NCBI GenBank assembly: GCA_947447825.1
Contig: CANFLL010000019.1
Location: forward strand, 1-52,477
Length of the DNA: 52,477 nucleotides
Direction: 5' to 3'
Origin: Chitinophagaceae bacterium
GTDB lineage: Bacteria > Bacteroidota > Bacteroidia > Chitinophagales > Chitinophagaceae
How positions within the stretch are numbered: position 1 is the first letter of the stretch; each line of letters starts with the position of its first letter. The notes beneath the pieces are model-generated. The model was not told the DNA's origin and searched no databases. It saw only the letters and a list, made by a program, of their open reading frames with translations. Shown in pieces: positions 7,374-43,368 of the stretch. The translations under genes and the position numbers were made by a program.

Positions 7374-7583
7374 TTTAAGTCTTCGGACGGAGGTTTTAGG
7401 TCTTCGGACGGAGGTTTTATATCATCAGACACTAGTTTTAAGTCTCCGAACATTGGTTTTGAATCTTCTAACGGACGTTTTATGTCTAAAGACATTGGTT
7501 CTAAGTAATCGGACGGAAGTTTTAGGTCATCGAATGTTCGTTTTAAGTCTTCAGACATTCGTTTTATATCAAAAGACCTTGGT
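7374..7583. repeat. 21-bp tandem array A (10 units)
   Basis: Ten consecutive 21-bp units starting with TTTA. The core approximates GTCT-nn-AGAC, with a variable remainder usually ending GGT or CGT. Two units carry a clear palindrome (ATGTCT-AA-AGACAT near 7482 and GTCT-TC-AGAC near 7547). Because 21 is a multiple of three, both strands hold open frames with a 7-residue period (minus strand SEDLKPP-like, plus strand LRTEVLG-like). I read these as by-products of the DNA period. The array lies between the anti-sigma gene and the 71-residue gene. Confidence 0.9.
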
Positions 7584-7623
7584 TTTTCCTTTTCTAAAAA
7601 TTATTTCAGAGAATTTACGCTAC

Positions 7624-7977
7624 TTAGTGATATAAATGAATGATGTAGAAAGTAATTATGATTAACACCAACGTTATGCCCACCGCTATTATTGCCCATT
7701 GATTGGAAGGGAGCTTACGTTTACGTTTTTTATCAATCCTTGTTTGAACAATTTTATTTAGCTGTCTATTCAAATTTTCAACAGATGCCTCAATTGCTTC
7801 CTTGCTTTTAATGGCAGACAATCCCTCCATTGCGTCATTAACAAACCCATCTTCTAGCATTTCTTTTTCAATAAGGTGCGCTTCTTCTGGCGATAATTCT
7901 TGGTTTAAGTAGTGCAGATAATCCTCTTCTGTAAAGCCCTCTTCTCCCTCTGATAATATTTTATTGATGTTACTCAT
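7624..7977 (-). CDS. Putative anti-sigma factor, single-pass membrane protein
   Basis: A 117-residue protein with a cytoplasmic N-terminal helical part (residues 1-88), a basic stretch KKRKRK, and one transmembrane helix near the C-terminus (about 94-113). It overlaps the ECF sigma gene by 4 bp, the usual layout for a sigma/anti-sigma pair. No HxxxCxxC zinc-binding motif is present, so it would be a non-zinc anti-sigma. There is no large periplasmic domain for signal sensing. Role is inferred from the gene pair, topology and size. Confidence 0.65.
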   Translation of the reverse strand: MSNINKILSEGEEGFTEEDYLHYLNQELSPEEAHLIEKEMLEDGFVNDAMEGLSAIKSKEAIEASVENLNRQLNKIVQTRIDKKRKRKLPSNQWAIIAVGITLVLIIITFYIIHLYH

Positions 7978-8540
7978 AATTGTTGTTTTAACTGTTTCTC
8001 TACCAAAATTTTCAGGTTGCGTTTACCATTTTGAATGTAGCTTTTCACCTGCAAAACACTGTATCCCGTAGCATCACAGATTGTTTGATAGCTTTTCTTT
8101 TCCAAATAAAACTGTGTTATGCAAACTCTTTGATCAAAACTTAATTGAACCAAGCATTCCTCGATGGCCATCAACGTTTTTTCATTGTGTTGTTTTGCAA
8201 AAAAATCAGATTCATCAGTTTCCAATTCAAAATTATCAGCCAATATTGTTGTACGGTTATGATTACGCAGCAAAAGCAAACAATGATTTTTGGCAACCAT
8301 GTAAAGCCAGCTTTTAAAGTAAGTGACCTTATACTTTTTTAGTTCTGTAATGGTTTTCAGAAATATCTGTTGAACAGCATCCTGTGCTGCCACTTCATCT
8401 TTCAGGTACTTCATGCACACGCCAAAAAGCAGTAGGGTATAGCGTTGCAATAAAGCACCAATCCATTTACTATCGCCATCAGAAAGATAGTTGGAAAGCA
8501 ATTCTTCGTCAGTTATATGGTCGTATTTATTTGTTGGCAC
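7974..8540 (-). CDS. ECF-type RNA polymerase sigma factor
   Basis: A 188-residue sigma-70 family protein of group 4. Region 2 is visible around residues 30-95 (YLKDEVAAQDAVQQIFLKTI then FKSWLYMVAKNHCL). Region 4 is a helix-turn-helix near residues 135-180 (LSFDQRVCITQFYLEKKSYQ and the recognition part SVLQVKSYIQNGKRNLK). It would redirect RNA polymerase to a small regulon under control of the overlapping membrane anti-sigma gene. The regulon is unknown. The divergent TonB-like gene starts about 320 bp away. Confidence 0.92.
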   Translation of the reverse strand: MPTNKYDHITDEELLSNYLSDGDSKWIGALLQRYTLLLFGVCMKYLKDEVAAQDAVQQIFLKTITELKKYKVTYFKSWLYMVAKNHCLLLLRNHNRTTILADNFELETDESDFFAKQHNEKTLMAIEECLVQLSFDQRVCITQFYLEKKSYQTICDATGYSVLQVKSYIQNGKRNLKILVEKQLKQQL

Positions 8541-8856
8541 AGAATAAAGATAGTTTTTTCAATCACTTTCCATAATTGATTACTAAAAAAGTTAAAATAA
8601 ATTACTACTAAGGAAGTTGTTAGGAATAGGTGATAGGAAATAAGTAAACCAAATATTGCATGATAGAATAAAAATTTTTTGCTAAATAAGGACTTCGGCT
8701 TTCTGAAATTTCTCAACTTTCGAGAAGTTTCTATTAACCCAATAATAAGCCACAATCCTAGTGTTGCTTTTGGCGAAAATTATTCGAGAAAAATTTCTAT
8801 TTGCCTTTTATGGAAAAAACAAAGTACGTGCATCTCATTAAAAAAATAGTATTGCC
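8541..8856. other. Intergenic region between sigma factor and tonB-like gene
   Basis: 316 bp between divergent genes. I see no gene I can support; the minus frame at 8513-8755 mostly overlaps the sigma start and has no family features. A short run of heptamer-like units (TAGGAATAGGTGATAGG near 8620) is present but without a clear inverted partner. Promoters for both genes presumably lie here, but I could not place a good TAnnTTTG element. Confidence 0.5.
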
Positions 8857-9681
8857 ATGAACAGAGACAACATTTTAACAGCCGATGTATTAGACATCAT
8901 CTTCGACGGAAGAAACAAAGCGTATGGTGCTTACAACCTTCGCAAAACGTATGATGAACGCATTAAGTTTGCGCTCATGGGAACAGCCACACTCAGCTTC
9001 CTTTTCTTTTTGAGTACTGTCATTAACTTTAGTAAGAAGAAACCAACTCAGATTTATGTTGGTGATGAAATTTCTTTAACAGGAGTCATTAAAGAAGTAG
9101 AAAAAGTGGTACCACCTCCCCCACCTCCTGCCCCAAAGCAGCAACAAATTAAAGTTGAAACTGTGGCGTTTACAACGCCAGTGATTACGGAACAAGTAAT
9201 TGACCCTCCACCATCTGTTGATGTATTGACCGACGTTAAAATAAGCACACAAAATATTGAAGGTGTGAAATCTGATGGAACAATTACGCCACCAGTGGAA
9301 GCAAGCACCACAAATGGTACTGGCCCTATTGCTAAAAAAGCGGATGACCCAGAGGGAGAATTTAAAACAGTACAGATTGAGGCCGCTTATCCGGGAGGCA
9401 AAGATGGCTGGATGCGATTTTTAGAAAGGAATCTAAACAGAGAAGCACCAAGTGAGGCTGGTGCGCCAATGGGAAAATATACGGTGGCTATCTCTTTTAG
9501 GGTAGATGAAAAAGGAAATCTTAGTGATATAATTGCAGAAAACAACCCAGGCTATGGCACAGCAGAAGAAGCAGTAAGGGTAATAAAAAAATCTGGTTCG
9601 TGGAAGCCGGCCATACAAAATGGTAGAACAGTTGCGTTCAGGGCAAAACAAACAATAACTTTTGTGGTGCAAGAACCATAA
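8857..9681 (+). CDS. TonB family energy transducer
   Basis: A 274-residue inner-membrane protein. A short cytoplasmic N-terminus carries the Bacteroidota TonB signature DGRNKAYGAYNLRK (residues 18-30), followed by one transmembrane helix (about 38-58), a proline-rich periplasmic linker with PPPPPPAPK (86-94), and a C-terminal TonB domain (about 175-273, starting YPGGKDGWMRFL). It couples proton motive force through ExbB/ExbD to outer-membrane TonB-dependent receptors. No exbBD genes are adjacent. Confidence 0.9.
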   Translation: MNRDNILTADVLDIIFDGRNKAYGAYNLRKTYDERIKFALMGTATLSFLFFLSTVINFSKKKPTQIYVGDEISLTGVIKEVEKVVPPPPPPAPKQQQIKVETVAFTTPVITEQVIDPPPSVDVLTDVKISTQNIEGVKSDGTITPPVEASTTNGTGPIAKKADDPEGEFKTVQIEAAYPGGKDGWMRFLERNLNREAPSEAGAPMGKYTVAISFRVDEKGNLSDIIAENNPGYGTAEEAVRVIKKSGSWKPAIQNGRTVAFRAKQTITFVVQEP

Positions 9682-9682
9682 A

Positions 9683-9736
9683 TTAGTTATTAGTTTGAGG
9701 CCTTTAATTAATCACTAACAACTAACCATTAATAAA
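9683..9736. repeat. Short heptamer inverted repeat
   Basis: Units TTAGTTA-TTAGTTT (about 9683-9697) face a looser complementary run (ACTAACAACTAACCATTAAT, about 9714-9733) after the TonB gene. It is a weaker member of the heptamer class and possibly a terminator. Confidence 0.45.
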
Positions 9737-9785
9737 TTTATTTGTGTTGGTTAATCATTTCTTTTATAGCCATACATAATTTATT

Positions 9786-9793
9786 TAGTTTTG
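9786..9793 (+). promoter_or_regulatory. Candidate -7 element upstream of polyprenyl synthetase
   Basis: TAGTTTTG matches the Bacteroidota -7 consensus TAnnTTTG. It ends 4 bp before the ATG at 9798, so transcription would begin at or next to the start codon, giving a leaderless or nearly leaderless message. No good TTTG -33 element is found at the usual spacing, which lowers confidence. Confidence 0.4.
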
Positions 9794-9797
9794 CCAC

Positions 9798-10763
9798 ATG
9801 CACAGCTTCCAAGAATTAGCAAAAAAGTTTATAGACCGCTTTAATACTTCTCATTTCCCTCAGCAGCCTTCTACCTTATATGAACCCGGGGAATACTTTT
9901 TGGGAATTGGCGGTAAAAGAATTCGTCCTGTAATGTGCTTAATGGGCAACGAACTGTTTGGCGACATTACCGAAGATGCTTACAACGTTGCCATCGCTAT
10001 TGAACTTTTTCACAATTTTACTTTAGTGCATGATGACATAATGGATGCCGCAACACTAAGACGGGGAATGGAAACTGTTCATGCTAAATATGGCAGCAAC
10101 GTAGCAATACTTTGTGGAGATGTAATGATTATAAAGGCTTATGATTACATCAATAAAACAAGCATTGAACACATACATGCAGTGCTAGAATTGTTTAATA
10201 AAACAGCAAGGGAAGTGTGCGAAGGACAACAATATGACATGGACTTCGAAAAACAATCTACTGTTTTGTTTGATGAATACCTGCACATGATTACCTTAAA
10301 AACTTCTGTACTATTGGCTGCATCCCTAAAACTAGGTGCAATCATTGGTGGAGCAGGAGAGGCAAATTGCAACCACATCTACAACTTTGGACTTAATCTT
10401 GGCTTGGCTTTTCAGATTCAGGATGATTATCTTGATGCTTTTGGCGATCCTGCAAAATTTGGAAAAGATGTGGGCGGTGATATTAGGCAGAATAAAAAAA
10501 CCTTTCTTTTATTGCATGCTTTAGAAGTAGCTACGCCTGAGCAAAGAATAGTGATTGATGAATTGTTAAGTTCTGACAGAGCTGATAAGGTAGAAAAAAT
10601 GCTTGAAATATTTAAAGCTTGTAACGTAGGTGCTTGGGCTAATCAGTTGAAAGAGCAATATTTAGCAAAGGCTTACAAACACCTTGATGACATTGCTGTT
10701 ACCGCTACTCGCAAGAATGCTCTTACTGAATTAGCGGCATATTTAATTCAAAGACAATCATGA
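9798..10763 (+). CDS. Polyprenyl (isoprenyl) diphosphate synthase
   Basis: A 321-residue all-helical trans-prenyltransferase. Both aspartate-rich motifs are complete: D79-D80-x-x-D83 in LVHDDIMD and D209-D210-x-x-D213 in QIQDDYLDAFGD. The GGKRIRP diphosphate-binding motif is at residues 38-44. It condenses isopentenyl diphosphate onto an allylic diphosphate in the cytoplasm. The aromatic residue five positions before the first motif (F74) suggests a short product such as geranylgeranyl diphosphate, but chain length cannot be fixed by eye. A near-leaderless promoter candidate precedes it. Confidence 0.92.
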   Translation: MHSFQELAKKFIDRFNTSHFPQQPSTLYEPGEYFLGIGGKRIRPVMCLMGNELFGDITEDAYNVAIAIELFHNFTLVHDDIMDAATLRRGMETVHAKYGSNVAILCGDVMIIKAYDYINKTSIEHIHAVLELFNKTAREVCEGQQYDMDFEKQSTVLFDEYLHMITLKTSVLLAASLKLGAIIGGAGEANCNHIYNFGLNLGLAFQIQDDYLDAFGDPAKFGKDVGGDIRQNKKTFLLLHALEVATPEQRIVIDELLSSDRADKVEKMLEIFKACNVGAWANQLKEQYLAKAYKHLDDIAVTATRKNALTELAAYLIQRQS

Positions 10764-10764
10764 G

Positions 10765-10970
10765 TTTATAGTTGAAAGTGAAAAGTTGAGAGTTGAGAGT
10801 TGAGAGTCAAGAGTTGTAAGTGGAAAGTGTAGCATTGAAAATATTAATTAATAATTTCATTGGAATCAACAACTAAAAGTCTCTTATAATATCTTAACTC
10901 TAAACTCTTAACTCTAAACTCTTGACTCTAAACTCTTGACTCTAAACTCTTGACTTTAAACTTTCAACTA
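10765..10970. repeat. Heptamer tandem arms forming a long imperfect inverted repeat
   Basis: The left arm (about 10768-10830) has repeated GTTGAGA units. The right arm (about 10894-10970) has repeated AACTCTA and AACTCTT or GACTCTA units with a strict 7-bp period. The outer ends match exactly (TAGTTGAAAGT / ACTTTCAACTA). The right arm ends 8-10 bp before the ATG of the SpmAB-like gene, so a hairpin could place its start at the foot of a stem. Confidence 0.75.
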
Positions 10971-10978
10971 ATCAATAC

Positions 10979-12253
10979 ATGGCATTAAGCAGAATTTGGA
11001 GTGCATTTATACTTATTGCCATCAGTGTGGCACTGTTTAAATGTGTTTATTTTCAGGATGTAGACATTTTTAGTAGGATGGTTGTGGGTAAAGCTGATGA
11101 CCCTACTAACCTTTTAAAAGTGGATGGTATTATCCCCACTTGCAAAACTGCCGTTGATTTATGTATTAATCTTGTTGGGGTAATGGCCTTATTTATGGGC
11201 TTTATGTGCATTGCTGAAAAAGCAGGAGGCATCCGTTTGTTATCTAAAATTATTGGTCCATTCTTTAGTAAACTATTCCCCGAATTGCCCAAAGATCATC
11301 CAGCTATGGGCTACATGATGATGAATTTTTCCGCCAATCTATTAGGGTTAGACAATGCCGCAACCCCTTTTGGCATAAAAGCAATGGAGAGTTTGCAAGA
11401 AATTAATACAGAAAAAGAAACAGCTTCCAATGGACAGATTATGTTTTTGTGTCTCCATGCGGCTGGCTTAACCTTAATCCCTGTAAGCATCATAGCCACA
11501 AGGGCTTCTATGAAAGCAGCTAATGCCACCGACATATTTGTGCCTTGCATGATTGCCACTTTCATTGCCACACTTGCCGCCATGCTCATTATTGCTTTTA
11601 AACAGAAGATAAACATGTTTCAGCCCATCATTTTGGTTTGGGTACTGGGACTGTCAGCTGTTATTGCTTCTTTAGTTTTTTACCTCACCACACTTAATGC
11701 AGTAGGTGTTCAATCATTCTCGAAAGTATTAAGCAATGGATTAATTCTGTTCATTTTTGTATTAATAATTCTTGGGTCACTATATAAAAAGATAAACATT
11801 TTTGATGCTTTTGTTGAAGGAGCAAAAGGTGGTTTTGAAACGGCCATACGCATTATTCCATACTTAGTGGGAATGCTGGTAGCTATTAGTTTGTTGCGGA
11901 GTAGTGGCACATTTGAAGTCATCATTTCTGGAATGAAATCCCTGTTTGGGTACTTAGGTGCAGATACTCGCTTTGTGGATGGCATCCCTACAGCACTCAT
12001 TAAACCATTGAGTGGGGGAGGCGCAAGAGGAATGATGGTAGACACCATGAAAACTTACGGGGCAGATTCGTTTGCCGGCAGACTTGCCTGCATTCTGCAA
12101 GGCTCTTCCGATACTACCTTCTATGTAATATCTGTTTATTTTGGTGCGGTTGCGGTTAAAAATACCCGTTATGCAGTTGGGGCAATGCTATTAGCTGATT
12201 TGGTGGGCATCATCACATCGATCCTTTTATGTTATTTATTTTTTGGAAAATAG
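10979..12253 (+). CDS. Nucleoside-recognition (Gate) domain membrane protein, SpmA/SpmB fusion
   Basis: A 424-residue polytopic membrane protein whose two halves resemble SpmA (with the segment MMNFSANLLGLDNAATPFGIKAM, here interrupted for brevity after 20 residues: MNFSANLLGLDNAATPFGIK) and SpmB (GGARGMMVDTMKTYGADSFA then LQGSSDTTFYVISVYFGAV). In Bacillus these are two spore-maturation proteins. In non-sporulating Bacteroidota they are fused and their substrate is unknown; Gate domains are thought to sit in transporters. At least eight hydrophobic segments are visible. The gene follows the polyprenyl synthetase after a heptamer inverted repeat. Confidence 0.85.
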   Translation: MALSRIWSAFILIAISVALFKCVYFQDVDIFSRMVVGKADDPTNLLKVDGIIPTCKTAVDLCINLVGVMALFMGFMCIAEKAGGIRLLSKIIGPFFSKLFPELPKDHPAMGYMMMNFSANLLGLDNAATPFGIKAMESLQEINTEKETASNGQIMFLCLHAAGLTLIPVSIIATRASMKAANATDIFVPCMIATFIATLAAMLIIAFKQKINMFQPIILVWVLGLSAVIASLVFYLTTLNAVGVQSFSKVLSNGLILFIFVLIILGSLYKKINIFDAFVEGAKGGFETAIRIIPYLVGMLVAISLLRSSGTFEVIISGMKSLFGYLGADTRFVDGIPTALIKPLSGGGARGMMVDTMKTYGADSFAGRLACILQGSSDTTFYVISVYFGAVAVKNTRYAVGAMLLADLVGIITSILLCYLFFGK

Positions 12254-12259
12254 AGCGAT

Positions 12260-12652
12260 TCATTTTGAGAAATTTCTTATAAAACAACATATAATTGTAC
12301 CATTACGAAGTTTGAAGGCAATCACTTTAATCCAATTAACAATCCGATAGACCTGTTTGTCAATCTGATTGTTAATCGAGACAATCAGATTGACAATCGG
12401 GACAATATGATTGTCGACTAGGTCAATCCGATTGTCAATTGAAACAATAAAATTTACAATTTTCTCAATCTGATTGTCAATGGAGACAATAATAATGTCG
12501 ATTAGGACAATCCGATTGACAAAAGGGGTAATCGGATTGTCAATTAGAAATGTAGCCAAAACACATTTTCCCTCAAAAGTTTTATACTCGTTTTCATCCT
12601 TAAATTGAATGGCATATACCAATTTACTTCTTCCTATGATTCTTCTTTGCAT
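12260..12652 (-). CDS. Doubtful open frame spanning array B
   Basis: A 130-residue frame with a non-repetitive N-terminus of about 36 residues, followed by eleven-odd heptads such as IVSIDNQ and IVNFIVS that are simply the translation of the 21-bp array. The N-terminal part matches no family I know. No signal peptide or promoter was seen. It converges on the SpmAB-like gene with 6 bp between stops. It is listed because the start and 36 residues lie outside the array, but it may not be expressed. Confidence 0.25.
   Translation of the reverse strand: MQRRIIGRSKLVYAIQFKDENEYKTFEGKCVLATFLIDNPITPFVNRIVLIDIIIVSIDNQIEKIVNFIVSIDNRIDLVDNHIVPIVNLIVSINNQIDKQVYRIVNWIKVIAFKLRNGTIICCFIRNFSK
12319..12549. 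repeat. 21-bp tandem array B (11 units)
   Basis: Eleven 21-bp units, most starting CAAT. The core is the 11-bp palindrome CAATC-n-GATTG, in which the centre base is C, T, A or G in different units while the arms stay the same in the best units. The remaining 10 bp vary (often TCAATTGGAGA-like). The outermost units (first, and those at 12445 and 12487) are degraded. It sits 66 bp after the SpmAB-like gene stop. Confidence 0.92.
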
Positions 12653-12761
12653 TATATCATTGCAGACTTTGCAGTTATACTGAGAATAAATTGATTTGCG
12701 ATAATTTCAAAAAAAATATGGAGTTGCAAAATAAATGTTAGTGTTATTTCGTTATTTAAAT

Positions 12762-13037
12762 ATGGGATTTCAAAAACTCAACAATACCGACAGATCAGTA
12801 TCAGTCCTTCGGGAATATCAACGTAATGCTGATGACAAACTTGTTTATATACGAGTCACGGTCATACTAATGCTTGATATGGCTAAATCTGTGGAAGAGA
12901 TTGAGTTTTTTTGGGGGATTGATGCGAGTACCATTTACCGTTACTCCAAGTACTGTAAGGAAAAGGGATTGGATGAGTACCTGAAAACAGGGTTTACAGG
13001 TTATGAGGGGGAAAGTGAAGCATTGTTTTTCGCATAG
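12762..13037 (+). pseudogene. Truncated IS630-type transposase N-terminus
   Basis: About 91 residues from ATG 12762 (an upstream in-frame ATG at 12735 is also possible). The segment VTVILMLDMAKSVEEIEFFW followed by GIDASTIYRYSKYCKEKGLD is a helix-turn-helix as found at the N-terminus of IS630/helix-turn-helix transposases, ending with the family-like FTGYEG. The frame then stops. No DDE catalytic domain follows in the next 260 bp in any frame, and no terminal inverted repeats were found. I read it as a decayed insertion-sequence remnant; a stand-alone DNA-binding protein is the alternative. Confidence 0.55.
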
Positions 13038-13300
13038 CAATTTCTTGTTAGTATAAATAAGGACAACGTGTTTCACTTTAATTGATTTAAGTAAAGATTG
13101 ATAAATGTGTTGAATATTTAATGGGGGACTTCTAAACTAAACGAAGTTGTTATTCCTTTATGATTAAGTAATTGTGTGCTAACACTTTTTTTATTAAATA
13201 TATATCCTCAAAAAGGTTTTATAATTTATAATTCCTTATTTTTAAATTTTATAGGCAGTATCGTTGTACCGACTGTTGTTTTTGTTTAAGCTTAATATTA

Positions 13301-15904
13301 ATGATAGCAACCCGGCAAGCATCTCTTTTTCAAAACTATTTTAGTTCAAATTATTCTTATAATGAGTTATTGGGCGAAGATGGTGTTCTACGCCCTTATT
13401 GGCAAACCTTTTTTCAATCTTTTGCCCTTCTTGGTTCTGATGAACTACATGAGCGTAGGCAGGCAATCCTTAGATTCCTTAAGGAAAATGGGGTTACTTA
13501 TAATATTTATGGTGACCCGCTTGGTTTAAACAGACCCTGGAATCTGGATGTTATTCCCTTTTTAATCGGTAAACAAGAGTGGGCAACTATAGAATCGGGT
13601 CTTGTTCAAAGAGCTGAACTTTTTGATCTTATCCTAAAGGATATTTATGGTCCTCAACAGTTAATTAAAAAAGGATTACTGCCCATAGAACTGGTCTATA
13701 ATCATCCGGGTTTTTTACGTCAATGTGCTGGAATAAAACAAAAAGGGAATCATCAGCTAGTGTTGTATTCTTCTGATATTGCACGTAGTCCTGATGGTAA
13801 AATATGGGTACTAAACGATAGAACACAAGCCCCATCTGGTTCTGGCTACGCACTAGAAAACAGAATGGCTATGGCTCGCATTCTGCCTGAATTTTTTGAA
13901 GGGCTAAAGGTAAAACAACTGTCTCCCTACTTTACCGATTTAAGAAATGCTCTTACTGACATGATGCCGCAGCACAATCAGCCCCGCATTGTGATTCTTA
14001 CGCCAGGTCCTAGAAATGAGACCTATTTTGAGCATTCTTATCTTTCATCCTATCTTGGCTACACCCTTGTGCAAGGCGATGATTTGATGGTTAAAGATAA
14101 TTTTGTTTGGTTAAAAACAGTTGGCGGACTAGAAAGAGTTGACGTTATTTTGAGACGTGTGGATGATAATTATTGCGATCCACTTGAACTAAAAGAAGAC
14201 TCTCAACTAGGGGTTGCTGGTTTGTTGCAAGCCGTTAGGAGTGGTAATGTACAAATAGCCAATCCATTGGGTAGTGGCATTTTGGAGAATCCTGGCATAT
14301 TGCCTTTTTTGCCAGCAATTGCAAAATATTATTTCAACAAACCTCTTATTCTCCCAAATATTGCTTCATGGTGGTGCGGTCAACCAGCTGAATTAAAATA
14401 TGTATTAGACAACATTTCTACACTTATCATCAAAAAAATTTATAGGGATTCCAATATAAGTACCTCTATAGATGGCTCTTTATTGACCGCTAAAAAGATT
14501 CAGGAATTAAAGGAGCAAATAAAAACCCATCCTTATTTATATGTGGGTCAGGAAAGAGTGGCGTTTTCTTCTACGCCTTCCCTTTCCGACAAAAAAGTTG
14601 AGCCAAGAGATGCTCTATTTAGGAGTTTCTTGGTAAGCAATGGGAATAGTTACACCGTAATGAAAGGTGGCTTAACACGCACCTCTAGCGATTCGGGCAA
14701 CATGATAATTTCCAATCAACTAGGTGGATTGAGTAAGGATACTTGGATTATTAGTCCTGATTCAGATAACCAATTCTCTCAGCAACAATCATTTAGGAAT
14801 TCCTTTGGGGGAATGACGCAGTCTCAATCGCAGCTTCAATTGCAAAGCCAGCAAATGCCTGCTGCCATCATGCCTACCTACAAAAGTTCTTTGCCTAGTC
14901 ACACAGCAGAGAACTTATTTTGGGTTGGTAGATACGCAGAACGCTTTTTAGGGAATGCACGTTTTCAGCGTACGGTCATGCAAGCTATTTCAGAGGGAAA
15001 TCATCTACAATTTGATAGTAATCGCCAAACTGAGGAAAACCTATTAATGGCATTAACACATTATACCTTCACTTACCCAGGTTTTATTGGAGATACAGGC
15101 AAAGCGAAATTGGGTAATCCTTGGAAAGAATTATCTGAAATGATGTTCGATGCTACTAAAAATGGAGGTCTTTCTTACAACTTTTCTTTGTTTAGCAGAT
15201 CGGTTAATGCGGTGAGAGATCATTGGAGTACAGATACTTGGCGTGTGCTGAGGAGTATGGAAGAGCTTTGGGTGGAGGCATCAACCTCGCATCTTACTCA
15301 TTTTAAGATGATTGCAATGTTGGATGAATTGATTACTTCTATGGTAGCTTTTATTGGGTTAAATAGAGAAAGCATATCAAGAGAACAGGGTTGGTCGTTA
15401 TTAAATACTGGAAGAAAGATTGAATCTGGGCTTCTGTTGGTGAATATGATGCGAGCAACCTTGGTAAACAAGCACGATGAGCAAGTGGCTTATAATCTTC
15501 AAGAGGCAGTTTTGCGTAGCAATGATTCTTTAGTTAATTATCGATATAAATATAAGGTTCACCTTCAACTGCCTTTAGTTTTAGATCTAATGTTGCTTGA
15601 TTCAAACAATCCAAGATCTCTTATTTATCAGGTAGTGCGTATAAAAAACTATCTGGAAAGTATGCCAAACCCTCAAAAGGTAGCGATGCCAGAACATTTA
15701 AGGCTTACCACAGAACTTTATGAACAACTAAAAAATGCAGATAAAGATTTTCTGACAGCAATAGATAACACTATGGGTTCTTATGAAAACTTAGATAGCT
15801 TCTTGGCTGACATGTACACTTATCTGGCTACTATTCCCAATGCCATATCGAAAACATATTTTAAACATACACAGCCACAGCGGCAATTATTTACTGCAGG
15901 CTAG
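13301..15904 (+). CDS. Circularly permuted ATP-grasp protein fused to alpha-E domain
   Basis: An 867-residue fusion. Residues about 60-480 are a circularly permuted ATP-grasp domain (RPWNLDVIPFLIG near residue 77, then a segment ending RTQAPSGSGYALENR). A Gln/Ser-rich linker (about 490-525) leads to an alpha-helical alpha-E domain from about residue 529 (SHTAENLFWVGRYAERFL). ATP-grasp enzymes of this type are thought to form peptide-like amide bonds. The pairing with a transglutaminase-like gene 16 bp downstream is the recurrent arrangement for predicted peptide tagging or small-peptide synthesis. No substrate is known. Confidence 0.9.
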   Translation: MIATRQASLFQNYFSSNYSYNELLGEDGVLRPYWQTFFQSFALLGSDELHERRQAILRFLKENGVTYNIYGDPLGLNRPWNLDVIPFLIGKQEWATIESGLVQRAELFDLILKDIYGPQQLIKKGLLPIELVYNHPGFLRQCAGIKQKGNHQLVLYSSDIARSPDGKIWVLNDRTQAPSGSGYALENRMAMARILPEFFEGLKVKQLSPYFTDLRNALTDMMPQHNQPRIVILTPGPRNETYFEHSYLSSYLGYTLVQGDDLMVKDNFVWLKTVGGLERVDVILRRVDDNYCDPLELKEDSQLGVAGLLQAVRSGNVQIANPLGSGILENPGILPFLPAIAKYYFNKPLILPNIASWWCGQPAELKYVLDNISTLIIKKIYRDSNISTSIDGSLLTAKKIQELKEQIKTHPYLYVGQERVAFSSTPSLSDKKVEPRDALFRSFLVSNGNSYTVMKGGLTRTSSDSGNMIISNQLGGLSKDTWIISPDSDNQFSQQQSFRNSFGGMTQSQSQLQLQSQQMPAAIMPTYKSSLPSHTAENLFWVGRYAERFLGNARFQRTVMQAISEGNHLQFDSNRQTEENLLMALTHYTFTYPGFIGDTGKAKLGNPWKELSEMMFDATKNGGLSYNFSLFSRSVNAVRDHWSTDTWRVLRSMEELWVEASTSHLTHFKMIAMLDELITSMVAFIGLNRESISREQGWSLLNTGRKIESGLLLVNMMRATLVNKHDEQVAYNLQEAVLRSNDSLVNYRYKYKVHLQLPLVLDLMLLDSNNPRSLIYQVVRIKNYLESMPNPQKVAMPEHLRLTTELYEQLKNADKDFLTAIDNTMGSYENLDSFLADMYTYLATIPNAISKTYFKHTQPQRQLFTAG

Positions 15905-15920
15905 TACATAGACATATATC

Positions 15921-16811
15921 ATGAAATATAAGATTATCCACAAAACAGAATATATCTATTACGAACCTATTAGTCTTTGCCACAATATGGCTCGTTTGGT
16001 GCCAAGGAGTACTACTTCTCAAAAATGCAATAAATCTACGGTAGTGATAGATCCAATGCCTGATGTGCTGAATGAATTCGAAGACTTTTTTGGTAATAAT
16101 GTTACCTATTTTGCAATTCAACGGGAGCATAAGTCATTATCAGTTACTGTTTCTTCTGAAATTGAGCGTGTGCCTGTAGATTTAAAACAAAGTATTGAAA
16201 CGTATGGAAAGGTTTCTTGGGAAGATGCAAGAATGCAGTTATACCAACAACGACTTGATTATATTGATGCACGCCAATATGTTCCAGAAACTGAGGCTAC
16301 AAAATTCGAGTCGGGAATTACCAATTATGCCTTAAAGTCTTTTACACCGGGTAGACCGATATATGAAGCAGTTTATGATTTGATGGAGCGCATCTTTAAG
16401 GATTTTCAATTTAAACCAGGGTTTACCACGGTGGCTACACCAATAGCCGAAGTGATGCAGTTGCGTAAAGGTGTTTGTCAGGATTTTGCACATGTGGGTA
16501 TCGCATGCCTTCGTTCTGTTGGTTTGCCAGCTAGATATGTTAGTGGATACATTGAAACGTTGCCACCACCTGGTGTAGAAAAGTTAGTAGGAGTAGATGC
16601 TTCTCATGCTTGGTTCTCTGCATTTATTCCAAATATTGGTTGGCTCGACTTTGACCCAACAAACAATGTTGTTCCCTCCAATCAACACATTACTATTGGA
16701 TGGGGTAGAGACTATTTTGATATTACACCACTCAAAGGAGTCATCCTCAGTAGTGGACCACATCGCCTTTCCGTTTCAGTAGATGTGAGGAGAATAGTAG
16801 TTGGTGGATAG
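15921..16811 (+). CDS. Transglutaminase-like cysteine protease/ligase family protein
   Basis: A 296-residue protein with an N-terminal beta-rich domain (about 1-95) and a transglutaminase-like core. The Cys-His-Asp triad is complete: C186 in GVCQDF, H229 in ASHAWF and D243 in WLDFDPTN. In this genomic setting such proteins are predicted to hydrolyse or transfer peptides made by the adjacent ATP-grasp/alpha-E protein. It starts 16 bp after that gene, so the two are surely one operon. The Anbu-type proteasome-like peptidase often found with the pair is absent here. Its last codons lie within a 28-bp perfect inverted repeat. Confidence 0.92.
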   Translation: MKYKIIHKTEYIYYEPISLCHNMARLVPRSTTSQKCNKSTVVIDPMPDVLNEFEDFFGNNVTYFAIQREHKSLSVTVSSEIERVPVDLKQSIETYGKVSWEDARMQLYQQRLDYIDARQYVPETEATKFESGITNYALKSFTPGRPIYEAVYDLMERIFKDFQFKPGFTTVATPIAEVMQLRKGVCQDFAHVGIACLRSVGLPARYVSGYIETLPPPGVEKLVGVDASHAWFSAFIPNIGWLDFDPTNNVVPSNQHITIGWGRDYFDITPLKGVILSSGPHRLSVSVDVRRIVVGG

Positions 16812-16893
16812 TTATTAGTTATTAGTGGTTTTGAAAATATATTCTCCTCTTACTTTTATATCATGAACCACTAATAACTAATAACTATCCACC
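16803..16893. terminator. Perfect 28-bp inverted repeat, convergent gene end
   Basis: Positions 16803-16830 are the exact reverse complement of 16866-16893, built from the heptamer-like units TAGTTAT/TAGTGGT. The left arm includes the last codons and TAG stop of the transglutaminase gene. A partial third copy of the right arm follows at about 16894-16912, next to the stop of the DUF2723 gene. It probably ends transcription of both convergent genes. Confidence 0.75.
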
Positions 16894-16914
16894 AACTATC
16901 CACTAATAACTATA

Positions 16915-19900
16915 CTAATGTGTTCCCAATTCAGGGGAAACAGCTTTTACTGATTCGAAGTTCTTCTTCATGTCTTCAAGACCTTTAATATAGCTTTCAG
17001 CAATTCTTCTTTCTTCTCCCATATTATCAGCTTTCTTACCTTCCAACGTATTGTAATATTTAATTTGTTGCTCCAAATCTTTCTTAACAGAAGCGTAAAC
17101 CTTTGCTGCCAATGTTTTATCATCTGCTCTGTAACAAGCCTCTAAAAACAATAAACTAGTACGGTTGTGCATGTTTCCACGACTAACCATTCCATATCCA
17201 AAGTTTTCTTGACTCATACCCTTATCAGCTTTTTCTAATAGTTTACGAGCATCTTCTTTTCTATTTCTTGAAGCAAGATAACTAGCCAATTCTCCATAAG
17301 CAGCACGAATAGAAAGTAAATGTCTGCGGTTTTCTTCATCATAATAAACACTTGGCAAATCTGCATTGCCAAAACCAAACTTGTTCATCATTTTGTCCAT
17401 TGCCCAATCTGCATTCCACTCATCACCTTCCACTGGAACTAACCGGTAGCTTAAACCATCCTTACGCAAGTACTTACCAAAGCCTAATTCACCAAAAGAA
17501 GAAGTGAAATAGATAGGACGTTTCCATTTGTTTGCAGCGATAATATTTAAGACGGCAATATCATTTTTGTATAAAGATGATTTAGGAATATCAAATTTCA
17601 ATTCATTCACCACACTGTCTTTTGCAGTAACTGTACCATTGCTACGAACAAGGTTTTTATCTACAGGAACAGTAATTTTATGTACAGGGAAAGTGTTTAT
17701 GAATTCATCTCCACCACGGCTTTGAACCTTATCAGCGTCATCACTGCCTACATATCTACGCATAATGGAGTCAATGTCATAGTATCTGGTATCTGGATAA
17801 CTAGCATTTGCTTGGAAAGGAACATAATCTCTCTTGCGCCCCTCTATCTGATCGATACTAAAGATTACATCTATAGAATCACTCTGATTAATTTTATAAC
17901 GTAGCTGGTTAATGTACCAGTCTATGCCTAATAAACTATTGTTTATAACCCTAATGTCTGGTCTGATACCTTCTACTTCTTGTGCATACCATAATGGATA
18001 AGTGTCGTTATCGCCAAAGGTGAATAGGATAGCGTTTGGTGCACAACTTTCCAGATAATCCTTTGCCAAATCTCTTGATAATGTTTTCTTACTACGGTCA
18101 TGGTCATCCCATTCTTGTTGTCCCATGATTACAGGTACTGCCAACAGACAGCTAAGAGTAGCCAATGTAGCAGCAACAGTTTGTGATAGTTTAAGTTTCG
18201 TTAACCATTCACTAACCATTAAAACGCCTAATCCAATCCAGATAGCATAGGCATAAAAACTTCCAGCAAATGCATAGTCACGCTCACGAGGCTGGTAGCC
18301 AGCCTGATTTAGGTAAAGTATGATTGCCAATCCTGTGAAAAAGAAAAATAAGAAAGTGACAAATCCATCACCTCTATTCTTTTTATATTGATAGTAAGCA
18401 CCCAATAAACCAAGAATAAATGGAAGCATAAACAATGTGTTATGCGCTTTATTGTTTTTCATACTATCAGGCATGGCAGATTGATCGCCTAAAAAGATGT
18501 TATCTATAAATGGTATACCAGAAAGCCAGTTACCATCGCGAACATTACCACCAAACATACCTTCTATATCATCTTGTTTGCCACTAAAATTCCACATGAA
18601 ATAACGGAAGTACATCCAGTAGAACTGATAAGAAACAAAGAAATAAACGTTGTCAGCTTGATTAGGTGTACGATCGTAACTTCCGTCCTTGTTTTTGTTT
18701 ATATCCAACATGTAAGCATAATAATCAGCATGATTCTGATCGTTACTAGCATCCCAAACACGTGGTAAAACCATTTTGTCGTCAGGAGAATACACATAGT
18801 GTCCATCCTTTCCAATTTCTATATACTTTTCCTTTCCTTTTTGGTATTTGGTATTAGTGGTTTTGTAGTCAACTGGTTGTGCCGTAAACTTCTGACCGTA
18901 TAATAATGGGAAATCACCATATTGATCACGGCCAAGATAACCAACAAGGCTAATAGGATTATCAACGTTATACATGTCAATTGCAGGGTCTGCACTACTA
19001 CGAATCATGGTAGTAAGGTACGAGCTATACCCTATCAGCATGAAAGCAAAACTCCAAAGTCCAACACGCAACATAGCCCAACCATTCTTGTTTGCAATGC
19101 GCAATCCATACCAAATTCCTACTGCTATTAAGATGAAAGCAAACGTAAATCCAGAGAAGAAAGGCAGATTGAAATTATTAACAAAAAGTCTGTCGAAATA
19201 GCCAGCAAAGCCGATACTGTACTGAATTACCCCTACTTGAACGATGCCAAGTAAAACTCCTCCAATTACAAAGAATATGTAAACACCACCTGCAAATTCT
19301 TTATTTCCCTTACTAATCTTTTCAATTAAAAATAATATGGCAACCGCAATAATAGTTCCCAATATCATCAAACCTCCAACGGTTGTGTCAACAGCTAAAC
19401 CGCGTGATTCGTTGGCTTCACCATTTGCGCTTAACAAAGCTAAGATGAAAGCAAGAATACCGCCTCCAATTACGATTCTTAAAAACCACGTACGAATTTC
19501 TTTGTAGTTAAATGTATGTTGTCTTCTGTAATAGTACACCATCACAGTTGCAGGTATGGTTAATAAGCTTAGTAAGTGTACACCAATAGATAAACCAATC
19601 ATAAAGAATACAGCGATAATCCATCTGTCAGAGCCTGGTTCATCAGCGTTTTGTTCCCATTTAAGGATGCACCAAAACACCACTGCGGTAAAAAAGGAAC
19701 TCATGGCATAAACTTCACCTTCCACTGCACTATACCAAAAGCTATCACTGAACGTGTAAGCCAATGCTCCTACCACACCAGCACCCATAATGCTCCATGT
19801 TTGGTAAGCTGTAAGGGTATCAGTAACATTTACTTTTAGTATTCTACGAGCGAAATGGGTGATGCTCCAGAACAGAAATAAGATAGAGAAACCACTACCT

Positions 19901-20151
19901 AAAGCACTTAGGGTATTGACTGCTTTGGCAGCAGTGAGGGGATTGTTTCCAAAAAGTATAATGAATATTCTTCCTAACAAAATAAATAACGGGGCTCCTG
20001 GTGGGTGAGGTATCTGTACTTTAAAACAGCTACTTACAAACTCTCCACAATCCCAAAAGCTACCTCCAGCCTCTGCGGTTAGGATATAAACGGTACAAGC
20101 TATGAGGCATACTGCCCATCCTACAATGTTGTTGACCTTACTAAAATTCAT
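16915..20151 (-). CDS. DUF2723 family polytopic membrane protein (predicted glycosyltransferase-like)
   Basis: A protein of 1078 residues from ATG 20151. The N-terminal half is a polytopic membrane domain carrying the DUF2723 signature GGSFWDCGEF and HPPGAPLFILLGR close to the first helices, which resembles the acidic loop of GT-C type mannosyltransferases (PMT, TMEM260). The C-terminal third is soluble and helical, with TPR-like segments after residue 950. An upstream in-frame ATG at 20184 is unlikely because a TAnnTTTG element (20178-20185) overlaps it. Protein O-glycosylation at the membrane is a plausible role by homology, but the donor and acceptor are not shown. Confidence 0.88.
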   Translation of the reverse strand: MNFSKVNNIVGWAVCLIACTVYILTAEAGGSFWDCGEFVSSCFKVQIPHPPGAPLFILLGRIFIILFGNNPLTAAKAVNTLSALGSGFSILFLFWSITHFARRILKVNVTDTLTAYQTWSIMGAGVVGALAYTFSDSFWYSAVEGEVYAMSSFFTAVVFWCILKWEQNADEPGSDRWIIAVFFMIGLSIGVHLLSLLTIPATVMVYYYRRQHTFNYKEIRTWFLRIVIGGGILAFILALLSANGEANESRGLAVDTTVGGLMILGTIIAVAILFLIEKISKGNKEFAGGVYIFFVIGGVLLGIVQVGVIQYSIGFAGYFDRLFVNNFNLPFFSGFTFAFILIAVGIWYGLRIANKNGWAMLRVGLWSFAFMLIGYSSYLTTMIRSSADPAIDMYNVDNPISLVGYLGRDQYGDFPLLYGQKFTAQPVDYKTTNTKYQKGKEKYIEIGKDGHYVYSPDDKMVLPRVWDASNDQNHADYYAYMLDINKNKDGSYDRTPNQADNVYFFVSYQFYWMYFRYFMWNFSGKQDDIEGMFGGNVRDGNWLSGIPFIDNIFLGDQSAMPDSMKNNKAHNTLFMLPFILGLLGAYYQYKKNRGDGFVTFLFFFFTGLAIILYLNQAGYQPRERDYAFAGSFYAYAIWIGLGVLMVSEWLTKLKLSQTVAATLATLSCLLAVPVIMGQQEWDDHDRSKKTLSRDLAKDYLESCAPNAILFTFGDNDTYPLWYAQEVEGIRPDIRVINNSLLGIDWYINQLRYKINQSDSIDVIFSIDQIEGRKRDYVPFQANASYPDTRYYDIDSIMRRYVGSDDADKVQSRGGDEFINTFPVHKITVPVDKNLVRSNGTVTAKDSVVNELKFDIPKSSLYKNDIAVLNIIAANKWKRPIYFTSSFGELGFGKYLRKDGLSYRLVPVEGDEWNADWAMDKMMNKFGFGNADLPSVYYDEENRRHLLSIRAAYGELASYLASRNRKEDARKLLEKADKGMSQENFGYGMVSRGNMHNRTSLLFLEACYRADDKTLAAKVYASVKKDLEQQIKYYNTLEGKKADNMGEERRIAESYIKGLEDMKKNFESVKAVSPELGTH

Positions 20152-20177
20152 GTCCTTTGTTTTATTAAAAGTGTGGG

Positions 20178-20185
20178 CAAACATA
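20178..20185 (-). promoter_or_regulatory. Candidate -7 element for the DUF2723 gene
   Basis: Read on the minus strand, TATGTTTG fits TAnnTTTG. A start of transcription near 20174 gives a leader of about 23 nt to ATG 20151 and would exclude the upstream ATG at 20184. No TTTG at the standard -33 spacing was found. Confidence 0.4.
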
Positions 20186-20332
20186 GTTTATTGAATTGAA
20201 ATATGGAATTTTGGATGCTAAACAAAACGGTGTGATTATTACTTAAATACAAAAAATGCAAATTATTTAACAATATTATCCTGCAAACAACTTGTAAAGC
20301 ATTTTTACTTTTCCTTTGCCACCGTAGATAAA

Positions 20333-21157
20333 ATGAGTTTAATGAAAAGAATGATAAATAATACAAAATACCTTTTGCCCCTTTTCTTCCTTGTAGCATG
20401 TGGTAATGGTGACATTAAAAACCCTCCTACAACCAATAACGCAACTAATGAACCTCCACAACTTACCTACACCATTGCAAATCAATTTCCACATGACACG
20501 TCTACTTACACGGAAGGATTGGAATTTAATGATAATGTTTTATATGAAAGTGGTGGACAGTATGGGGTAAGTAAATTGGCAACAGTCGATTTGAAAACAG
20601 GACAATCTACCAAAAAGACACCATTAGATAAAAAATATTTTGGTGAAGGAATAACCATCTTGAACAACAAGATTTATCAAATGACATGGAAAGAAAAGAC
20701 CTGTTTTCAATATGATGCTAAAACCTTTGCCAAGCAAAAAGAATTTACTTACGATGGGGAAGGGTGGGGCATGACAAACAATGGCAAGCAGCTAATCAAC
20801 AGCGATGGCAGCAACAACCTTTATTTCCGTGACCCTGAAACGTTTAAAGTGTTGAGCATTGTGGGAGTAACAGATAATAATGGACCCGTTGCGAACATTA
20901 ATGAACTGGAATATATTAATGGATTTATATTAGCCAATATTTGGCAATCGGACATCATCATTAAGATTGACCCTGAAAGTGGAAAGGTTTTAGGCAAAGC
21001 AGATTTTAGCGGAACGAAAGAGAAATATTTTCCTGAGTATGCAGAAAAAGCGGAAGTGCTAAATGGTATTGCTTACGATAATGCCACCAAAAAATTGTTT
21101 ATTACAGGGAAGTATTGGCCAAAAATATTTGAAGTGAAAGGCCTTACAGAAAAGTAG
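20333..21157 (+). CDS. Glutaminyl-peptide cyclotransferase, lipoprotein
   Basis: A 274-residue protein with a lipoprotein signal peptide (LLPLFFLVAC; lipidation at the Cys about residue 23). The mature part is a beta-propeller of the plant/bacterial glutamine cyclotransferase family: HDTSTYTEGLEFNDNVLYES, GEGITILNNKIYQMTWKEKT, a stretch ending NELEYINGFILANIWQSD, and the C-terminal VLNGIAYDNATKKLFITGKY-WP. It converts N-terminal Gln of peptides to pyroglutamate, outside the cytoplasm. A second ATG (20342) could also serve as the start. It is followed by a strong terminator. Confidence 0.9.
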   Translation: MSLMKRMINNTKYLLPLFFLVACGNGDIKNPPTTNNATNEPPQLTYTIANQFPHDTSTYTEGLEFNDNVLYESGGQYGVSKLATVDLKTGQSTKKTPLDKKYFGEGITILNNKIYQMTWKEKTCFQYDAKTFAKQKEFTYDGEGWGMTNNGKQLINSDGSNNLYFRDPETFKVLSIVGVTDNNGPVANINELEYINGFILANIWQSDIIIKIDPESGKVLGKADFSGTKEKYFPEYAEKAEVLNGIAYDNATKKLFITGKYWPKIFEVKGLTEK

Positions 21158-21176
21158 GTTTAAGATGTGGAAATTT

Positions 21177-21210
21177 AATAAACGCCCTTAATAATTTAAG
21201 GGCGTTTATT
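21177..21210 (+). terminator. Intrinsic terminator after the cyclotransferase gene
   Basis: AATAAACGCCCTTA (21177-21190) pairs perfectly with 21197-21210 across a 6-nt loop. The GC-rich centre and T-rich 3' end fit rho-independent termination about 20 bp after the stop codon. Confidence 0.85.
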
Positions 21211-21372
21211 AAAATGTTATGTAGGTTTTCTTGATAGAAAGTATAGTTCAAGTGCTAAAATTTATCAAGTAACAAGTTTTTTTAAGGAATCTAGTCTAAA
21301 AAAGGTTAGCAACTTTAACTTCAATGCAGTGTCATTTCAAATGATTACTTTCAAATTACACCTTTCAATTTC

Positions 21373-21816
21373 CTAAGCTTCCGAAGTTTCATCTTTTGTT
21401 TCTTCTGCTGCATCTACCTCATCAGCTTCGTCCTCTATAAGTTCTATGGTTATTGCATGTTGTTTAATAGATTTAAACCATCGCACCATCTTCTTCATAT
21501 CACTGGCATACACTCTGTCAAAATCCAGATCAGGAAATACAATTGTGAAGTATTCTTTTGTTGCTTTTGCATCTTTTTCATCTGGAACAACCTCTTTTGA
21601 AGCATCCATTGCTAAAAACACTTTCGCCAGTTTAACGTTTTCTCTTATAGTAAAAACTTCAATTGATTCTAATTGCGAGAATGTGTTGCTTCTTGATGAA
21701 ACAAATTTTACTGACTTATCGTCTAGGCTTCTAACTAAAATGCCTTCTCCTTTTTTTCCAAAGATTTCATACAAACCAGATAATCCTGTTACTGCTATTA
21801 ATTTGCTATATTCCAT
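21373..21816 (-). CDS. DUF5606 family protein
   Basis: A 147-residue cytoplasmic protein with the N-terminal pattern LIAVTGLSGLYEIFGKKGEG of DUF5606, a small Bacteroidota family of unknown function, and an acidic low-complexity C-terminus rich in Glu/Asp/Ala. The N-terminal half looks like a small beta-barrel. No enzymatic motif is visible. It diverges from tex across a 1.15-kb gap containing array C. Confidence 0.8.
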   Translation of the reverse strand: MEYSKLIAVTGLSGLYEIFGKKGEGILVRSLDDKSVKFVSSRSNTFSQLESIEVFTIRENVKLAKVFLAMDASKEVVPDEKDAKATKEYFTIVFPDLDFDRVYASDMKKMVRWFKSIKQHAITIELIEDEADEVDAAEETKDETSEA

Positions 21817-22932: not shown

Positions 22933-22968
22933 AGATTTTCTAATAATAAAATAGAACAAGTAAGAGAT

Positions 22969-30102: not shown

Positions 30103-30111
30103 TAGTATAGT

Positions 30112-32079: not shown

Positions 32080-32088
32080 ACTAATAAT

Positions 32089-32144: not shown

Positions 32145-32207
32145 ACATATCCTACTACTTAATCAACCTAAAATTTAACTACTAAACACTAGTTAATAAT
32201 AACTTTC

Positions 32208-32885: not shown

Positions 32886-33200
32886 ACAACAATCTTTTTT
32901 AGTTTATAAAAGTAAATACTTTAACTCAGATAAAACAGAGATGGCATAAAAGTTTTTCGCTTAATAACTGTATAACCTCCCGAAAGTTTTAAACTTTGGG
33001 TAAGTTTTATCCTAGTATATCAAAAAATTTTATGCTCCCAAAATGAGGTATAAAGCCAAGTATAAATGCCTTCAATCAAAGAATTGGTTATTACAAAAGG
33101 GAATTGAAATGAATTGTTGCATCATCAATGAACTAACTAAAGCTTTGAAACAACCAAAGACAACACTCATTTAGAAAATGCCAACAAGAAACAGGGCAAT
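32886..33200. other. Intergenic region before array D
   Basis: About 315 bp, AT-rich, with no gene or motif that I can support. Confidence 0.5.
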
Positions 33201-33545
33201 CTGGACCGGACTGGTACTCAGCTGGTCCAGTTTCAATAAAACCTGACAAGAACTGGGGTAGTCTGGACCGGACTGGTACTCAGCTTGTCCAGTTTTATTA
33301 AAACCGGACAAGAATGGGGGTAGTCTGGACCGAACTAGTACTCCGCTTGTCCAGTTTCTATAAAACCGGACAAGAATTGGGGTAGTCTGGACCGGACTGG
33401 TACTACGCTGGTCCAATTTTAATAAAACCGGACAAGAATTGGGGTAGTCTGGACCGGACTGGTACTACGCTGATCCAGATTTACTAAAACCAGACAAGAA
33501 TTGGGGTAGTCTGGACCGGACTGTTACTCCGCTAGTCCAGTTCTA
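33201..33545. repeat. 62-bp tandem array D, a trimer of ~21-bp monomers (5.6 units)
   Basis: Units begin at 33201, 33263, 33325, 33387, 33449 and 33511, exactly 62 bp apart, and differ at only a few positions each. Within a unit three related GGwC-type motifs lie at offsets 3 (CTGGACCGGAC), 24 (CTGGTCCAG) and 44 (CCGGACAAG), so monomer spacing is 21, 20 and 21 bp. CTGG-T-CCAG is a perfect palindrome, and CTGGACC pairs with GGTCCAG across the unit. This is the most homogeneous and probably youngest array in the window. Confidence 0.93.
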
Positions 33546-33645
33546 AACAGAATATAGTTTGAAAAAACTGAATGAAGAGTTCATCTCTAACCTAGTAAAT
33601 CAATCATTCTTTTAATTCAAATCATTTAAGGTATGGTATAAAATA

Positions 33646-33673: not shown

Positions 33674-33707
33674 CGTTTACTCACACTTTAATAATCAATC
33701 ATCCATC

Positions 33708-42779: not shown

Positions 42780-42835
42780 ATATAAATTTTTGTTTGAAAC
42801 AATAAAAGTAGGGGAATGGTTGATACCTATAAAGC

Positions 42836-43102
42836 TTATTGTATTACCTGAATATTACCCCATCCCTGATAAAAATTTTCATGCCCTAATGCACTCAATG
42901 TATAATAAAGTCGGAATCTACCTACAGGGATAAAGTGAAAAGGTATTGTGCGGGAATCTGTCAGACGCATTAAATCGCCTTGGTTATTATATTTATATAT
43001 GTTGGAAACATCAATTTTATTTGATGAAGAAGAACTTTTATTACAAGCAAAAACAATGATACTTGCAATAATTAATAAGAAAAATTGTTTTGTAGTCATC
43101 AT
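42836..43102 (-). CDS. Small lipoprotein, hypothetical
   Basis: A protein of about 88 residues from ATG 43102 (43099 also possible; an ATG at 43144 would delay the signal peptide). Signal peptide FFLLIIASIIVFAC with a lipobox Cys, then a serine-rich spacer (NKSSSSSN) and a short beta-rich domain (FHFIPVGRFRLYYTLSALGH). It was not recognised. It lies 57 bp from the DPP-IV start on the same strand, so the two may be co-transcribed. Confidence 0.65.
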   Translation of the reverse strand: MMTTKQFFLLIIASIIVFACNKSSSSSNKIDVSNIYKYNNQGDLMRLTDSRTIPFHFIPVGRFRLYYTLSALGHENFYQGWGNIQVIQ

Positions 43103-43179
43103 ATATTTTTTTGTTACCGTACAAATATTATCCATCCCATTCACTTTTCCTAATTATTCAAACGTAAATACACCAAAAG

Positions 43180-43368
43180 TTCACCCTCAACCGTCATTAA
43201 TTCACCTGAGTCAGTGTATGACTCAGGTGAGTGGAACTTAAGTTCACCTGAGTGACACTGCGACTCACCTGAGTTGGGCGATAACTCACCTGAGTCTGAC
43301 GATGACTCACCTGAGTCGCGGTCTGACTCAGGTGAATTTATTTGTGACTCAGGTGAATTTATTGGGGT
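43180..43368. repeat. 21-bp tandem array E (9 units), same core as array C
   Basis: Nine 21-bp units beginning CTCA or TTCA, with core CTCACCTGAGTC or its inverse CTCAGGTGAG; the spacer of 9 bp varies freely. Five units carry TCACCTGAGT exactly, as do four units of array C 21 kb away. On the minus strand the frame is open through the array but has no start codon: a TAA lies just upstream and no ATG intervenes. It lies in the divergent gap between the small-lipoprotein gene and the S41 protease gene. Confidence 0.93.

Follow-up and report, generated by a model that had tools for sequence, protein, structure and literature searches.

Intergenic 21-bp tandem arrays in a Chitinophagaceae genome: candidate helically phased protein sites, one type of which is carried by a MITE

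The window, that is, the whole 52,477-nucleotide stretch of DNA analysed here, corresponds to contig 19 in the draft assembly (4.65 Mb, 187 contigs) of a Chitinophagaceae bacterium. The nearest matches to its S41 protease are encoded in metagenome-derived genomes of Chitinophagaceae, the first of them, at 93%, being that of the congener G004. Five tandem arrays built on a 21-bp unit, or on a 62-bp one (21 + 20 + 21), lie between the larger ORFs; an earlier note on this DNA had described them as intergenic, and Tandem Repeats Finder (TRF) recovered all of them in place. The limits given below stand on inspection by eye, those of TRF being narrower (A, 7374–7556; B, 12359–12522; C, 22258–22428; E, 43262–43363), and the TRF periods are 21 for A, 21/42/63 for B, 21/42/84 for C, 62 for D and 21 for E (in adjoining stretches).

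Array A (7374–7583) has a 21-bp unit with a GTC..GAC dyad and a conserved GTTTTA. Array B (12319–12549), also with a 21-bp unit, carries the core ACAATC-n-GATTGT between strongly drifted spacers, and its arms are better conserved than the rest of the unit (permutation p 0.01); a 130-aa ORF (12260–12652) runs through it. Array C (22236–22441) consists of 10 units with the core AYTCAV-BTGART and sits inside a dispersed element described below. Array D (33200–33546) comprises 5.6 copies of the 62-bp higher-order unit, in which CTGG, CTGG and CCGG start at positions 2, 23 and 43, and the next motif at 64, by hand count; this confirms the trimer spacing of 21/20/21 proposed earlier. Four other strong matches to it were found elsewhere in the genome. 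Array E (43180–43368) has the same core as C, as had been noted for two of the loci, and is without MITE flanks. Elsewhere in the genome, matches to A, B, D and E take in the array and no more than a few tens of bp beside it. The earlier note assigned a palindromic core to each locus. When dyad symmetry was compared with that of 40 column-permuted controls for each array, this held for B, C and E, which pass at p ≤ 0.05, and not for A (p 0.17) or D (p 0.10), for which a palindromic core is not shown when they are taken alone. Other repeats are present in the window as well. Degenerate heptamer arrays (period 7/14/21), common in the genome and its congeners, lie at 10762–10828 and 10892–10962; some of them score at 21 and may have given rise to 21-bp arrays. 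At 22834–22941, inspection by eye shows short repeats, both direct and inverted (TTCACCACAAGGAACACAAAG...), which also match positions 14931–15033 of sampled locus L071. The 72-bp repeats at 27188–27407, within a large ORF that has leucine-rich-like repeats, are coding and unrelated to the arrays.

Array C is not a local array. It belongs to a dispersed MITE of ~700 bp (22047–22753), with inverted ends TTCTACTTTGACAGATTA (consensus) and no ORF of at least 100 aa within that interval. A query with 22100–22600 gave 33 matches in the genome at E ≤ 1e-64, itself included, and the terminal inverted repeats gave 51 matches versus 1 for a reversed control pattern. Of the 26 pairs of ends, 6 were discarded as spurious because one of their ends had five mismatches. 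The 20 credible two-ended copies measure 573–720 bp between ends, and 13 of them have identical 4-bp flanks, which are other than TTAA in four cases (CTAA three times and TTAC once), compared with a mean of 6.0 and a maximum of 12 in 5000 rounds of shuffled pairing of all 26 end pairs. The window copy itself is flanked by ATAA/TTAA. MITE copies carry about 5 to 11 array units, some being cut by contig ends. No transposase or transposon with the MITE ends was found at eight lone-end loci, with ORFs listed for two of them, and at locus L086; the lone-end loci that were compared carry partial MITE matches. Contigs C17, C38, C40, C83, C133 and C134 end inside or beside MITE-borne arrays, and the copy number of the element is therefore probably underestimated.

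The MITE copies allow the array to be compared with the rest of the same element. In an alignment of 16 full-length copies, gaps form 17 intervals in the body (471 bp) and 6 in the array part (205 bp); the lengths of the former are never multiples of 21, and those of the latter always are. Pairwise identity is similar in both parts, at 0.87 for the array and at 0.83 and 0.86 for the body. The spacing is either selected or renewed by recombination between units. Among the window arrays, only C is shown to ride on a MITE.

The arrays are not a local curiosity, an idea that was rejected on the basis of an own-genome sample of 20 stretches of 20 kb (400 kb), picked by contig number and blind to arrays. 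TRF found 68 arrays in this sample, of which 32, or ~80 per Mb, are at least 80 bp long and repeat roughly every two helix turns or at a multiple of that distance. In the window and the sample together, 35 of 43 arrays of at least 80 bp have a smallest period of 21 (21 arrays) or of 41, 42 or 62 (14 more), while one mononucleotide-shuffled copy of the same sequence yielded none of that length; in this genome sample, arrays of this kind are thus commoner than those of other periods, as would be expected from the earlier description. The sampled arrays split into many unrelated cores, so that one genome holds several sequence families, and the congeners sampled also carry many such arrays. Among 76 loci (L138–L213) of other Chitinophagaceae and Bacteroidota, all surrounding the S41 protease gene, a single one has a phased array of at least 80 bp; most arrays at those loci are 87-bp repeats, taken as coding. 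A small stretch sampled from congener G012 (L103, 3398–4243) contains long arrays of a 9-bp unit (AACTCCCTA) with as many as 46 copies.

All 50 arrays that could be placed in the own genome and in the congeners are intergenic; two arrays at locus edges were omitted, and ORFs shorter than 1.5 kb of which an array takes up more than a quarter were excluded beforehand. They lie between tandem genes in 25 cases, divergent genes in 19 and convergent genes in 6. Among all sampled pairs of adjacent genes (n = 528), the corresponding figures are 376, 75 and 77, and among those separated by at least 250 bp they are 76, 42 and 22. The placement is not terminator-like, and the divergent share is mostly what long gaps give; for these 50 arrays, neither an avoidance of convergent genes nor a divergent excess beyond intergenic length is clear. 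Beside some arrays there is a second dispersed repeat of ~170 bp (L070 12360–12526; also L078, L062, L079, L085 and L076), with 89–97% identity between the L070 copy and its four best matches.

Dyad symmetry is widespread among the phased arrays: 22 of 52 exceed their column-permuted controls, with ~2.6 expected, as opposed to 2 of the 15 arrays that have another period. Conservation of the arms was compared with that of the remaining columns in the arrays having at least five units, a mean information of 0.6–1.75 bits and a palindrome score of at least 4, which kept 16 of 34 period-21 arrays; A and E are among the 18 that fail these filters. In 12 of the 16, conservation is higher in the arms than elsewhere in the unit; the mean difference is +0.41 bit versus 0.00 for permuted columns, and the permutation p is ≤0.03 in 11 of the 16. 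Twelve of the tested arrays have cores other than that of C and E, nine of them being positive. Four of the 16 show no arm advantage; in L067, L075 and L080, alternating units depress the value for the rest of the unit.

The core common to C and E was defined from 97 units of 12 arrays without MITE flanks in four species, namely the own genome and the congeners G001, G006 and G010. Arrays with MITE sequence on one side (L108, L053, L057 and L058), one with a related but different core (L071) and duplicates (L002, L003 and L004) were left out. These units form a symmetric motif, [G]AYTCAV-BTGART[C], separated by almost featureless spacers: information is 1.52 bits in the arms, 0.39 at the centre and 0.25 in the spacer. 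The expression used to gather units tolerated three arm mismatches, which favours the arms, and missed in-register units were restored; centre and spacer were never specified. Steps from site to site are 21 in 73 of 79 cases and 42 in the other 6, and the MITE-borne units give the same logo. Equal divergence of arms and spacers, which would have counted against the earlier reading, is not seen in this comparison across arrays and species. The earlier suggestion that selection acts on spacing as well as on sequence is supported by the clustering of periods, by this difference between arms and spacers and by the lack of array indels shorter than a unit among the MITE copies.

The centre of the C/E core is asymmetric. 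In most units the central dinucleotide is AC/GT, AG/CT or CC/GG, and self-complementary centres occur in only 9 of the 97 units, compared with 36.8 in within-array shuffles (minimum of 5000, 24); among 265 MITE units there are 4, with 91 expected. The innermost base is therefore usually not the same in both half-sites of a C/E unit. This rule is not general, as the consensus centres of L083, L086 and L096 are self-complementary. Avoidance of a restriction site may be invoked, but all four self-complementary centres are scarce (CG 5, GC 2, AT 2 and TA 0 of 97), which no single enzyme would bring about.

We tentatively favour, at slightly less than even confidence, a reading in which the arrays are helically phased sites for a candidate dimeric and cooperative DNA-binding protein, spread by MITEs and by local amplification; helically phased binding arrays were among the options listed in the earlier note and are the best of them. 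Each palindromic core would bind one dimer. As the cores are two helical turns apart, the dimers would lie on one face of the DNA, where neighbours could touch and binding would be cooperative, and the bound dimers would form a short rod or bridge. Such a structure would act as a local nucleoid, insulation or silencing patch, not as the operator of a single gene. The arrays would lengthen or shorten by whole 21-bp units and would be copied elsewhere partly by MITEs. The observations underneath are the arrays and their period, the arms kept while spacers drift, the lack of covariation in the C/E core (see below), the indel pattern, the spread of the C type by a MITE and the near confinement of the C/E site to arrays; from them we infer the protein, its cooperativity and any cellular effect. 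The main difficulty for protein sites is the existence of many unrelated cores, which one sequence-specific protein cannot all read. Homogenisation of units by recombination could also hold the spacing constant, and the four arrays without arm advantage, as well as a small excess of Watson-Crick pairs at two of the five C/E arm pairs, count against this reading too, as do scanned flanking genes without common function and the lack of an array at most orthologous gene ends (figures below).

The main rival, which we regard as possible, is that the arrays are satellites free of function, generated by slippage or recombination with a step of ~21 bp, copied by MITEs and kept under weak selection in long intergenic regions. 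Apart from the many unrelated cores and the movement of array C with its MITE, it is favoured by the almost perfect homogeneity of the L071 and L083 arrays and by fast turnover. In congeners, an array lies within ~350 bp of the orthologous gene end in 6 of 29 cases (0 of 2 for A, 2 of 7 for B, 1 of 4 for C at the Tex start, 1 of 4 for D, 0 of 7 at the S41 start and 2 of 5 at the DPP start), an eighth B orthologue, in G010, being cut by a contig end and a 14-bp heptamer array in L249 not being counted. As 23 of the 29 lack an array, no individual array looks essential in its place, and the unit differs from that of the window in five of the six others. After the gene preceding array B, for example, there are 21-bp arrays with different units in G004 (69 bp past the stop codon) and in G002 (about 20 bp), while G010 carries an array with the C/E core between Tex and DPP; the own array E is ~420 bp from the DPP start. 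Function-free satellites nevertheless give no account of the preservation of arms beside drifting spacers in arrays with different cores, of the C/E half-sites that differ at the centre or of a period of two helical turns. Gene order is heavily rearranged relative to G004 and G003 (window 5000–24900, roughly 80–90% DNA identity), most gene blocks being on another contig or reordered in congeners, with several breakpoints in array-bearing intergenic regions.

Hairpins, that is, folded transcripts or extruded cruciforms serving as terminators, sponges or structural RNA, would be in keeping with cores that are inverted repeats, and small RNAs are among the proposals of Subirana and Messeguer for bacterial satellites (PMC8161180). 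We consider them improbable. Pair 2/11 of the C/E core, the one arm position that is free to vary, forms 69 Watson-Crick pairs in 97 units, below the 72.9 expected, and C-A and T-G mismatches are common there (27 of 97 units, with T-A in 0; in MITE units, 120 of 265, with T-A in 16). Pairs 1/12 and 5/8 are also below independence, while 4/9 (94, expected 92.1, p 0.03), 3/10 (78, expected 75.6, p 0.13) and one of three spacer pairs (34 of 95, expected 24.2, p 0.013) exceed it. This lack of covariation at the variable position favours half-sites that are read independently, and it disfavours a hairpin or cruciform for the C/E core; the half-sites seem to be kept as sequence rather than for pairing. 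In addition, two central bases leave no proper loop unless the next pair opens, convergent genes flank 6 of 50 arrays and make up 77 of the 528 neighbouring pairs, which is no enrichment, and the sole Rfam match in the window is a tRNA. Nor does the order of the C/E central dinucleotides give any sign of a long hairpin (adjacent complementary 27 of 113, expected 22.9; at lag 2, 13 of 97, expected 19.8).

Classical operators, in which a dedicated repressor or activator would bind each array to control the gene beside it, are still less probable. They would agree with the intergenic location, with the gene start (at least one) that faces 44 of the 50 placed arrays and with recurrence at orthologous gene ends (6 of 29, versus 23 of 430 for the gene ends sampled in congeners generally), an excess that is suggestive, given that long intergenic regions attract arrays, species are non-independent and numbers are small. 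Presence at orthologues is patchy, however, and confounded by intergenic length, and the flanking genes are mixed. Own-genome arrays are flanked by 67 genes, and the Pfam scan covered those below 3 kb in length (59 genes) as well as a control gene set; among the 25 of 89 families listed, three occur in more than one gene and none in more than three. None of these three families is a regulator, although single regulators may lie among the other families. The scanned genes are a mixed assortment without common function, and the idea that a core is tied to a neighbouring regulator finds no support in them. Solitary sites also argue against operators. The own sequence searched, 714 kb in part retrieved on account of its matches, contains 282 C/E motifs in clusters and 6 on their own, some of the latter having centres that arrays seldom or never show. 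Of 39 scrambled motifs, 37 score 0–9 in the same sequence and two score 146, which are taken to be array sequence hit in another register. The C/E site is therefore almost confined to arrays, without solitary operators beyond chance.

Protein sites in helically phased rows are known from plasmid iterons and partition centromeres. Here, in contrast, there are many arrays with many cores in a chromosome-sized genome, and none of the ten window genes near arrays that were scanned belongs to a Rep or Par family (Pfam). CRISPR loci consist of repeats of ~21 nt or longer, unique spacers of similar length and cas genes; a CRISPR array was rejected because the C/E core is of 14 bp with a 7-bp spacer and no Cas family was found in the ten window genes scanned. 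REP and BIME sequences are intergenic palindromes in high copy, with a GTAG or CGTC tag beside the palindrome. They are associated with RAYT transposases (PMC3733652). The C/E motif is without the GTAG/CGTC tag and its units are in tandem with a rigid 21-bp step.

Closer relatives exist, and the earlier statement that no described system fits is not borne out. Bacterial satellites of constant size and variable, unrelated sequence have been published, without a known function (Subirana and Messeguer, PMC8161180). They measure 20–21 or 52 nt in Bacillus and 20–23 nt in many groups, with 40–41 also seen, are non-coding and lineage-specific in scattered taxa, and form several unrelated families per genome (PMC8161180). 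Their authors note the two helix turns and suggest a protein that forms polymers along DNA, or small RNAs. They also report short signals within the 52-nt repeats, frequently accompanied by the reversed form, and an inverted motif in itself is therefore no novelty (PMC8161180). The window and own-genome arrays share the unit of 20–23 nt with at least four repeats (D being a 62-bp multiple), the non-coding location and the unrelated families. The second relative is BrickBuilt, a MITE of Porphyromonas gingivalis with a 23-nt minisatellite, made up of a leader, a tandem array and a tail, with inverted ends, always intergenic, with 19 copies in one strain (PMC4596501). Like array C, it is a tandem array held by a Bacteroidota MITE, the likeness being one of description; its unit is 23 instead of 21, and the C/E core also occurs free of MITEs in four species. 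The window arrays thus belong to the published satellite and MITE-minisatellite kinds. They differ from the published satellites in their density (~80 per Mb in the sample), in the common higher-order units of 41, 62 and 82 bp, in a measured palindromic half-site motif whose variable position does not covary, in the asymmetric centre and in the spread of one core by a MITE. A literature search did not find a half-site motif with a non-covarying position, an asymmetric centre or an indel comparison within a MITE.

Returning to the sites for a dimeric protein, a broader version can be conceived, which we hold to be unlikely: a DNA-organising system of the genus, in which related dimeric proteins, each with its own half-sites, would polymerise on phased rows at hundreds of intergenic places. 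Because the C/E units are asymmetric, the subunits (or those of a heterodimer) would be non-equivalent and may set the direction of assembly. Extrapolated from the sample, the genome would contain some hundreds of the arrays. The MITE copies provide an internal control for the spacing, since within one element, and at similar divergence, the array tolerates only length changes of whole units. The sharp C/E motif, found in four species, is a concrete bait for finding a reader protein and makes function testable in a class of satellites described so far without one.
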